NCBI GenBank assembly: GCA_024274915.1
Contig: JAJSAC010000051.1
Span: forward strand, 1-38,506
Reading direction: 5' to 3'
DNA from: Thermodesulfobacteriota bacterium
GTDB taxonomy: Bacteria; Thermosulfidibacterota; Thermosulfidibacteria; Thermosulfidibacterales; B14-G1
Length of the DNA stretch: 38,506 bases
Shown: piece by piece, positions 4,599 to 38,506 of the stretch
Numbering within the stretch: the stretch's first letter is position 1
Layout of the letters: the number at the start of each line of letters is the position of its first letter
The notes under the pieces: model-generated
The model's database searches: none
What the model saw: only the letters and a program-made list of their open reading frames with translations
Told to the model about the DNA's origin: nothing
Position numbers and translations under genes: made by a program

Positions 4599-5042
4599 TT
4601 ATACGTCTAGCACCACTCGGGCTTTGTAGCCCTGGGGGCTCCTTTCTATCCGGGCCTGGTGGAGAGTGGCGGCCTTCACCAGGGTCTTGATGGGGTGCTT
4701 CCCTTTCTGGAACCTTTCACCTAAGCAATGTGCTTTTATGTAGTGGGGCTCCAGTTTTTCAATTACACAGTCTTTGAAGAGCCAGTCCCGGGCGTCTTGG
4801 AGAAAAACCAGTTCGTTGAGCCAGCTCACCAGGAGGTCTATCCAGTCTTCCCCCTGGGCCTCCACGGTAACCTCTTCTTGGAGTGCTATCTTGTCCAGGT
4901 CGGTGATGAGGTCGAAGAGGCCTCTCAGGGCGTTGCGGAATACCTCTTCCAGTGTGGCTCCGTAAATCTCCAGCCCCGTATCTGCGGTGGTGTCAAATGT
5001 CTGGAATCCCTTTGTCATTTCCACCTCCGTATTCATCACCAT
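4599..5042 (-). CDS. Archease, RtcB-activating protein
   Basis: This 147-residue archease-family protein shows FDTTADTGLEIYGATLEEVFRNA near the N terminus. The conserved metal-site acidic residues follow later (DWIDLLVSWLNELVFLQD), with HQARIE and a C-terminal RVVLDV strand. Archease is a calcium-binding cofactor that speeds RtcB guanylylation and lets it turn over many times. The usual H-T-A-D signature reads T-T-A-D here. Several in-frame ATGs exist (5042, 5036, 5015); the first gives a protein slightly longer than usual, so the start is uncertain by up to 9 codons. It is the promoter-proximal gene of a two-gene operon with rtcB. Confidence 0.92.
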   Translation of the reverse strand: MVMNTEVEMTKGFQTFDTTADTGLEIYGATLEEVFRNALRGLFDLITDLDKIALQEEVTVEAQGEDWIDLLVSWLNELVFLQDARDWLFKDCVIEKLEPHYIKAHCLGERFQKGKHPIKTLVKAATLHQARIERSPQGYKARVVLDV

Positions 5043-5160
5043 AGGCCTTTCTCAGCTGTTGTCCATGGCTATTTTTCTTATGATGTGGGCTAGGGTAGGG
5101 TTTTAAGAGGAAGTGGTTTCTCTGTGCTTCTCTTTGTGTTGCAGGATTTTATAGGTGGTC

Positions 5161-5184
5161 GGGGGAGGGGCTTCCCCCTCCCCC
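5161..5184 (-). terminator. GC-only hairpin after the aldehyde dehydrogenase gene
   Basis: A perfect 10-bp stem (GGGGGAGGGG and CCCCTCCCCC) closes a 4-nt loop 10 bp beyond the stop of the minus-strand aldehyde dehydrogenase. A U-tract is lacking on either strand, so it may be a weak terminator or an mRNA 3'-end stabiliser. Confidence 0.6.
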
Positions 5185-36779: not shown

Positions 36780-36787
36780 GTGTAGGG

Positions 36788-36857
36788 CTAAAGACAAGGG
36801 CAAAAGGCTAAAGGCTAGGGGCTAGAGGTGAGGGATGAAGGCGGAAGGATGAGGGAT
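36788..36857 (+). repeat. Degenerate 7-bp tandem array overlapping the gltX start
   Basis: Ten successive 7-mers of related sequence (for example TAAAGGC, TAGGGGC, TAGAGGT, GAGGGAT, GAAGGAT) run without phase change between dapB and gltX. Both possible gltX starts (GTG 36828, ATG 36849) lie inside the array. Confidence 0.7.
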
Positions 36858-38267
36858 GGTAAAAAGGCAAGCTCATCCTTGGGTTTTCCTGTAAAGACCC
36901 GTTTCGCTCCCAGCCCCACGGGGTATCTTCACCTGGGCAATGCCAGGATAGCTCTCATAAACTACGTAGTGGCCCTCCAGCATGGGGGTCACTTTCTATT
37001 GCGCATGGAGGATACTGATCTGGAGAGAAGCCAGCCCCGTTTTGTGTCGGCGATAAAGGAGGATCTGGAATGGCTGGGACTTTCGTGGCACGGGGAAGTG
37101 ATTTTTCAAAGCCAAAGACTCGAGCTCTATAAAAGAAAGGCCCTGGATCTGTGGAAAGGGGGGGTGGCCTATCCTTGTTTTCGTACCCCCCAGGAGTTGG
37201 AGGATCATCGAAGGAAATGTATCGAGAAGGGGAAACCTCCACGCTACAGTGGCAGGTGCAGAGGGCTTTCTCCTATGGAAGTTCAGGCTCGTGTGGTTGA
37301 GGGAGAGCCTTTTTCCCTCCGTCTCAAGATAAATGCTGGGGCCCATGTGAAATGGGAGGATGTGGTGAAGGGCGCCAAGAAATTCAGGGGCAAGGACCTG
37401 GACGATGTAGTCCTTTTGAGGTCTGATGGTACGCCTACCTATCATTTGGCGGTGGTGGTGGACGATGGAGAGGCGGGTATCACCCATGTCATTCGAGGGG
37501 AAGACCATTTAGCCAACACCCCTTACCATATCCTTCTCTTTGAGGCCCTTGGTTATCCTGCGCCCACCTTTGCCCATGTGCCTCTGGTACGGGCTCCGGA
37601 AGGTGAGGTGCTGGAAAAGAGGGAGGGAAGCCTTTGGACGTTGAGACGTCTCCGAGGGGAGGGTTATTTGCCCTTGGCTTTGGTCAATTTCCTCATCATC
37701 CTGGGCTGGAACCCACCCCGTAAGCCTCCCCTCACGTGGAAAGATATACTGGGGTCCTTTTCCATGGAGAAACTCTCTTCTTCTTCCGTCACCTTTTCCC
37801 CCTCTTCCCTGGTTTCCATCAACAGAAAGCTCCTGGCCACTTTACCCTTGGAGGAAATCTTAGGAGCCTTGGAGCCCTATTTATCTTGTCCGCTGCCTAA
37901 AGGGAGGCTTAAAGGGGCCGTAGCTCTAGTAAGGGAGAATGCTTCTACCCTGGTAGACTTGGCTCAATGGGTGGAGAGACTGGTGGTGGGGCCTGGCAAA
38001 GTAGATCTGGAAGAAGGTGAGGAGGATGTACTCCGGTTTTTCTGGGACTCCAAGGGGGAGGGGCGTTCCTGGCAGGAGGTCTTGGAGGAGATGGCGAAGG
38101 GAATGGACAAGGAGGAGAAGCGCCTCCTCTTTCGTACTTTAAGGAAGGCTTTCCTGGGTTCACCCCAAGGCCCTCCCATGGGAGATTTGATAGCTTTCCT
38201 GGGGGAGGAGGAAGTGGCTAGGAGGCTAAGGGACTCCTTGAGCTTAGAGGATGAAGAACCATCTTGA
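36849..38267 (+). CDS. gltX: Glutamyl-tRNA synthetase with atypical KMSKS loop
   Basis: This class I synthetase of about 472 residues has the HIGH-equivalent HLGN (28-31) in APSPTGYLHLGNARIALIN, RMEDTD, and the Rossmann stretch YHLAVVVDDGEAGITHVIRGEDHLANT. The region aligned with the KMSKS loop reads EGEVLEKREGSL (251-262), where bacterial GluRS normally have DGKKLSKRHG. K257 and R258 remain, but the first Lys and the Ser are lost. The zinc region is partial (C110, C124, C137). The anticodon-binding half is present, so it is not a truncated GluQ-RS. ATG 36849 is a compromise: it and the GTG at 36828 both lie in a repeat array. It could be a second, specialised GluRS or the only one. Confidence 0.88.
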   Translation: MRDGKKASSSLGFPVKTRFAPSPTGYLHLGNARIALINYVVALQHGGHFLLRMEDTDLERSQPRFVSAIKEDLEWLGLSWHGEVIFQSQRLELYKRKALDLWKGGVAYPCFRTPQELEDHRRKCIEKGKPPRYSGRCRGLSPMEVQARVVEGEPFSLRLKINAGAHVKWEDVVKGAKKFRGKDLDDVVLLRSDGTPTYHLAVVVDDGEAGITHVIRGEDHLANTPYHILLFEALGYPAPTFAHVPLVRAPEGEVLEKREGSLWTLRRLRGEGYLPLALVNFLIILGWNPPRKPPLTWKDILGSFSMEKLSSSSVTFSPSSLVSINRKLLATLPLEEILGALEPYLSCPLPKGRLKGAVALVRENASTLVDLAQWVERLVVGPGKVDLEEGEEDVLRFFWDSKGEGRSWQEVLEEMAKGMDKEEKRLLFRTLRKAFLGSPQGPPMGDLIAFLGEEEVARRLRDSLSLEDEEPS

Positions 38268-38303
38268 TGCAGGGCTTCCCCCAGTTTTACCCTTAGGGAT
38301 AGG

Positions 38304-38444
38304 GGCGGGGCGTTCCGACCGCAGAGATGATAGCTCATAGTTCATAGCTCGTAGTTCATGGTTCAATGCTCATAGTTGTTATCAGCCATGAGCCATGAGC
38401 CATCAGCTATCAGCCATGGGCAAGGGAGGAATGCCCCGCCTTTT
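38304..38444 (+). terminator. Large terminator-like stem with an inserted heptamer loop
   Basis: GGCGGGGCGTTCC (38304-38316) and GGAATGCCCCGCC (38428-38440) form a 13-bp RNA stem with one G-U pair, followed by TTTTCACTT. The 111-nt loop contains the heptamer array, whose halves are themselves complementary. It is the likely 3' end of the gltX transcript. Confidence 0.6.
38328..38418 (+). repeat. Inverted heptamer tandem array after gltX
   Basis: Thirteen exact-phase 7-mers are present. Seven resemble TCATAGT or TCATGGT, one is a centre unit, and five resemble AGCCATG. In reverse complement, offset by one base, the second group reads TCATGGC, so the two halves can fold into an imperfect arm of about 35 bp. 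Confidence 0.75.
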
Positions 38445-38506
38445 CACTTGTTTGAAAGGGAAAATCCAGAATTCTGAACATGATGCCTTTACCAAGAAGG
38501 GAATCT

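Follow-up and report, generated by a model that had tools for sequence, protein, structure and literature searches.

Inverted heptamer arrays at the apex of a repeated MITE-like element adjoining gltX in a Thermosulfidibacterales genome

The gltX-proximal locus

The window analysed here is the whole of a 38,506 nt contig (C44), one of 77 contigs in a 2.03 Mb genome (G000). Near its right end, on the forward strand, is a gltX-like gene (nt 36828–38267), a putative glutamate-tRNA ligase gene named from its sequence, its reading frame and its orthologues. A copy of a repeated element starts 2 bp past the gltX stop (nt 38270–38506, forward strand, as are all the features below) and, judging from full copies elsewhere that retain both ends, its right terminal repeat falls beyond the end of the contig. 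The copy opens with a left terminal inverted repeat, CAGGGCTTCCCCCA (nt 38270–38283; consensus of the copies, CAGGACTTCCCCCA), and this is followed by the left arm of a GC-rich inner stem, GGCGGGGCGTTCC (nt 38304–38316), recognised by folding and by its pairing across 42 copies. Further along are a left array of seven TCATRGY-like heptamers (nt 38328–38376), a junction unit, TGTTATC (nt 38377–38383; a GTTGYTATC junction is common to most copies), and a right array of five reverse-complement units (nt 38384–38418), both arrays being delimited by sequence and by the 7 bp steps seen among copies. The right arm of the inner stem, GGAATGCCCCGCC (nt 38428–38440), is likewise supported by the fold and by pairing in the copies. 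It leads into the right subterminal arm (nt 38441–38506), which was defined by alignment of the copies and is cut by the contig end; the arm begins with the TTTT (nt 38441–38444) that prompted the idea of a terminator, and this reads CTTT in most copies.

An earlier note on this DNA, made from the sequence alone, had described thirteen in-phase 7-mers with inverted halves (nt 38328–38418) in the loop of a 13 bp stem followed by TTTT, and each of these parts is present where it was placed. The array is clearly non-random. Self-matching at a lag of 7 reaches a maximum of 59/84 at the array, while lags of 4–6 and 8–13 give no more than 43 anywhere in the window, and the folded RNA of the feature has an energy of −78.7 kcal/mol compared with −46.7 ± 3.9 kcal/mol for 200 shuffles (z = −8.1). 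The description was correct as far as it went, but the parts it covers are just the centre of a larger element that is repeated in the genome. An Rfam search of the final 2.5 kb of the window gave no match. A scan of a collection of genome contigs, from which the genome of the window was apparently absent, gave a single chance match in an Acetobacteraceae MAG, and viral contigs gave none.

Other short repeats occur in the window. Degenerate heptamers of different units (GGCTAAA, GGATGAR) run from just ahead of gltX across its called start (nt 36786–36858), and similar heptamers also precede gltX in another of the 60 genomes searched (G001). The start of the contig (nt 47–133) carries almost four copies of a 23 bp repeat, TGGATACTTTCCACTGGAATCAG. 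Some insertion sequences have multiple end repeats, which these copies resemble.

A repeated element with transposon-like ends

The element to which the stem and array belong recurs throughout the genome and is mostly 195–259 bp in length. It has a 14 bp terminal repeat (CAGGACTTCCCCCA) and the GC-rich inner stem, and its apex is built from heptamer (TSATRGY) arrays in inverted orientation. A search of the genome found the core in at least 40 places at E < 1e-45 (40 scored of 107 candidates), and alignment of the copies with their flanks showed that conservation reaches well outside the stem. The ends of the element are the terminal repeat and its reverse complement, for which there are 90 exact sites in the genome against about 0.015 expected by chance. 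Merging of these sites with the core matches gives about 82 loci, a count in which an element split by a contig gap may score twice, many contigs ending inside a copy. In the stretches fetched from the genome, 43 pairs of terminal repeats are spaced 195–295 bp apart, one of which (L078) probably joins a lone end to a chance match.

Target duplications of 7–11 bp (mostly 8–10 bp) with at most one mismatch border 26 of the 41 full copies for which both flanks were available, and 22 of these are perfect; the other 15 copies have none under the same criterion. When the left flank of one copy was combined with the right flank of another, duplications appeared in only 6 of 1640 combinations. The target duplication of the window copy is invisible because the contig ends inside the element. 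At the orthologous gltX loci of G001 and G003, the element gives no BLAST match in the available sequence. A rough ORF call places most copies in intergenic DNA, with 11 of 43 overlapping an ORF of at least 100 aa; copies occur in either orientation and also between divergent genes. The element therefore has the properties by which MITEs are recognised (short, with terminal inverted repeats, target duplications and a high copy number, and too short to encode a transposase), and it is almost certainly a non-autonomous transposable element of this kind.

A transposase associated with these terminal repeats was not found among genes of the families PF13808, PF01609 and PF00872. The first two families are absent from the genome itself, and the terminal repeat was not found near its IS256-type gene. 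The flanks of PF01609 genes (8 relatives) and PF00872 genes (9 genomes), scanned with up to three mismatches allowed, yielded no flanking pair of terminal repeats and only a few single, weak matches. An ISAs1-like origin, guessed from the CAGG start and the length of the duplications, was unsupported.

Heptamers in the MITE apex and in cobalamin riboswitches

Heptamers form the apex in 38 of the 43 terminal-repeat pairs. Array lengths could be measured in 37 copies, the window copy included (7 of 44 rows were omitted), and range from 19 to 61 bp on the left and from 12 to 47 bp on the right. A single 7 bp phase is common to 34 of the 37 left arrays and 36 of the 37 right arrays, so that copy number varies in 7 bp steps between MITE copies. 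The lengths of the left and right arrays show no clear correlation (rho 0.20, p 0.23; 37 copies), which lends no support to copying of whole units from arm to arm.

MITEs with the same terminal repeat and inner stem are found in G004, which belongs to the same family but to another genus. Three copies in the genome of the window (L063, L064 and L077) have a non-heptamer apex that aligns over its length with the one usual in the G004 MITEs and is homologous to it, suggesting from sequence comparison that this apex is probably the older state and the heptamers derived. In L055 the apex holds an insert of another sort, distinct from that of these three. Four G004 copies (L097, L123, L127 and L130) carry short heptamer stretches in place of the usual apex, which indicates that heptamers probably entered the MITE apex more than once. 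In L116, a copy from the genome of the window, heptamers stand next to a stub of the older apex (GGCGAATTCATGGGC), and this copy looks like an intermediate between the two states.

Variants of other kinds were also seen. The copy at L021 (~4932–5170, contig C37) has the common heptamer core but a differing right arm, by eye like that of the G004 MITEs, and is likely to be a hybrid between MITE subfamilies. A shorter, related element without heptamers adjoins a MITE copy at L039 (~2728–2821). Inside five G004 MITEs (L127, L129, L133, L134 and L097) there is a further palindrome, GGGGTCCCCACAAAATC ... GATTTTGTGGGGTAAAA, apparently a separate small repeat nested in them.

Overall, the element is an imperfect palindrome with the heptamers as its apex. 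Among six older-apex copies taken from the two genera, pairing holds in 93.7% of cells, and both sides have changed in 10 of 37 pairs. The covariation score was reached by none of 500 shuffles and was lost when partners were slid, although the shuffle control is lenient because the six copies are related and were hand-chosen from those with the older apex. Between L126 and L128 the entire apex is inverted relative to the arms. Homogenisation of arms and inversion of the spacer are both described as products of template switching between inverted repeats in parts of two published accounts (PMC8604942, PMC8794818). Of 1176 site pairs, 152 failed a four-gamete test, most often those comparing the left with the right arm (74/374); exchange between copies would account for these failures, as would recurrent mutation.

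Heptamer arrays are not confined to the MITE. A pattern of three tandem TSATRGY units has 246 matches in the genome of the window, 10 in G001, one in G003 and two each in G004 and G059, with none in the other 55 of the 60 genomes, and control matches were zero throughout. Arrays outside MITEs are present in the genome of the window, G001, G003 and G004, across the same genus and the sister genus; some are in a single orientation and one is inverted. The occurrence of arrays elsewhere, together with the 7 bp steps in copy number, means that the outcome named in the earlier note as counting against it, an isolated array, was not observed. A scan of about 297 kb of the genome with a periodicity cut-off of 36/56, in which MITE-like stretches including one riboswitch array were masked, gave three lag-7 arrays compared with one at lag 9 and none at the other lags from 4 to 12, a small excess. 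Arrays of other heptamer units, CCCCAGT-like and GGAGACG-like, occur at L064 (3976–4078 and 3324–3403).

A BLAST match beside one MITE was traced to a cobalamin riboswitch that contains a hairpin of inverted heptamers. Rfam searches of seven loci in the same genome identified a cobalamin riboswitch and a tRNA, and three further matches were far below threshold. Across nine genomes there were 20 riboswitch matches, of which 18 were examined (two from G007 were omitted) and 16 were full length. Heptamer stems are present in 6 of these 16: all three from the genome of the window, both from G004 and one of two from G002. They sit between the conserved CCACTG and GGGAAGG motifs, at the position of a variable stem, and the stems that carry them remain paired. 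Five of the six contain the strict heptamer pattern, while the sixth (L168) was recognised by eye and by a lag-7 self-match of 21/35, compared with no more than 17 in the ten without heptamers.

Orthologous riboswitches differ in this respect. Upstream of one gene, the stem is heptameric in the genome of the window and in G004 but short in G002, G003 and G005; the proteins encoded by this gene in G004 and G002 are 89% identical over 473 aa. Another locus, whose upstream neighbour is conserved, has the heptameric form in G002 and G004 and a short stem in G001 and G003. The heptamer stem has therefore been repeatedly gained or lost. Heptamer periodicity was seen in none of the seven RNase P RNAs examined (of nine matches; a partial one from G005 and a sub-threshold one from G007 were omitted).

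A MITE copy lies about 50–65 bp from the 5′ end of each of the three cobalamin riboswitches in the genome of the window (contigs C29 and C37; L160, 1215–1781; L166, 1501–2031; L171, 1501 to ~2055). Uniform intergenic insertion would produce this proximity with a probability below 1e-4, a rough, post hoc figure that uses assumed intergenic fractions. No terminal repeat was found near the G004 riboswitches in the stretches fetched, and the proximity is only a lead.

Origin of the heptamer hairpin and comparison with known systems

The earlier note had placed the array within a terminator-like stem. An intrinsic gltX terminator with an expanding repeat in its loop would suit the position 2 bp past the stop codon, the GC-rich stem followed by TTTT and the very stable fold, but the stem is the inner stem of the MITE, and its copies do not keep the T run. 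The pair that includes the first T is G-C in 36 of 42 copies and G-T in the other six, so that TTTT is a minority state; in those 36 copies pairing continues past the 13 bp stem and only TTT follows. The same sequence recurs at about 82 mostly intergenic loci in various orientations, with borders that are transposon ends flanked by duplications. As part of a repeated mobile element with an unkept T run, the hairpin is very unlikely to be explained in the main as a terminator. It may be a structured 3′ RNA, the other suggestion of the earlier note. The many contigs that end inside a copy, the window included, could hint at an assembly artefact, or the array could be a chance sequence; dozens of copies with distinct flanks and target duplications, and homologous elements in relatives, already refute this reading, which is virtually excluded.

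Another reading is selection on the hairpin as RNA, for example as an mRNA stabiliser, an RNase site or a regulator carried by the MITE. The compensatory changes would then reflect RNA pairing rather than template switching. Departures from pairing in the inner stem (42 copies, modelled strand) favour G-T over A-C (60 versus 11 cells), and the riboswitch stems that bear heptamers are still paired. One fixed site, however, supplies 40 of the 60 G-T cells and the split by site is about 8 to 2, so the bias is suggestive and cannot decide between RNA selection and template switching. Quasi-palindromes are also stated, in parts of PMC8794818 and PMC8604942, to self-correct without selection, and the MITE copies occur in either orientation, including between divergent genes. 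Selection of this kind is considered rather unlikely. It is more improbable still that the heptamer hairpin moves as a unit of its own, inserting into the tips of MITEs and riboswitches. Inverted heptamers do occur in MITEs from two genera, several riboswitch loci have them in the same stem, where their presence varies between orthologues, and G001 has a free inverted array; against this, neither fixed borders nor terminal repeats or duplications were seen for the array itself, and arrays vary in sequence by site, some being in one orientation only.

Insertion of a MITE just after gltX, with the heptamers as its reshaped hairpin apex, is, taken as a whole, the quite probable explanation of the locus. 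Its spread would have depended on a transposase supplied in trans that recognises the terminal repeats. Heptamers would have arisen at hairpin tips by slippage in replication and then replaced the ancestral, non-heptamer apex. Each arm could subsequently change length by slippage in 7-base steps, while template switching between the arms would hold them complementary and now and then flip the apex. The hairpin-tip mechanism of slippage and template switching has about an even chance of being correct, and an identical process at the tip would account for the heptamer hairpins on cobalamin riboswitch stems.

A broader proposal, conceivable though doubtful, is that hairpin tips act as growth points throughout the order, with a degenerate heptamer repeatedly capturing the apex of unrelated palindromes. 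It covers the MITEs of two genera and the cobalamin riboswitch stems at several orthologous loci, and includes 7-base lengthening of both arms with complementarity kept by template switching. If true, this would provide a natural case of structured RNAs acquiring stems through DNA replication. Replication template switching is claimed, in part of PMC8794818, to create and maintain RNA hairpins, and the variability of riboswitch heptamer hairpins between orthologues makes that claim testable in bacteria by ordinary strain sequencing. The dozens of copies beside an apparently older apex constitute many replicate records of change at a hairpin tip. The findings also advise caution, as a heptamer array may sit within a structured RNA without having a function.

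STRR heptamers of heterocystous cyanobacteria are said to have been reported in RNase P RNA (by Vioque, in 1997). The likeness to STRR drawn in the earlier note holds for degenerate tandem heptamers at many sites, and for their presence within a structured RNA; it fails for RNase P RNA (0/7), the TSATRGY unit being found instead in cobalamin riboswitches and mostly carried by MITEs. The BOX elements of Streptococcus pneumoniae have a middle module (boxB) that is variable in number, with a unit much longer than a heptamer. They resemble the present element in being short, mobile and intergenic, as far as the consulted part of PMC10969869 describes them, and differ in sequence and host.

Xanthomonas and Nostoc have heptamers between genes, at times inverted, and Calothrix also has heptanucleotide repeats, according to part of PMC4692102. 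The Xanthomonas GGGAATC heptamers form many intergenic arrays, often as inverted pairs, which are hairpin-capable and variable between species; their unit, however, is G-rich and quadruplex-forming, and that part of the source describes no transposable-element carrier. The TAACTGA repeats of Beggiatoaceae are similarly abundant, intergenic heptamers, but are direct repeats of one fixed unit before start codons, with no MITE described in the part of PMC4679880 consulted. In the literature searched, mostly without subscription journals, no report placed heptamers at the apex of a MITE or within the stem of a cobalamin riboswitch.

A close parallel is BrickBuilt of Porphyromonas gingivalis, an intergenic bacterial MITE with conserved ends and a variable internal tandem repeat. 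In part of PMC4596501 it is described as having a 23 bp unit between a leader and a tail, and 19 copies, few of them with intact ends. The element described here does not share the 23 bp unit with BrickBuilt ends; it has a 7 bp unit in two opposed apex arrays, about 82 loci and also a non-heptamer apex, and its heptamers are found in riboswitches as well. Bacterial MITEs with an internal tandem repeat are thus already known, and what sets this one apart is the presence of opposed heptamer arrays of varying length on one palindrome.
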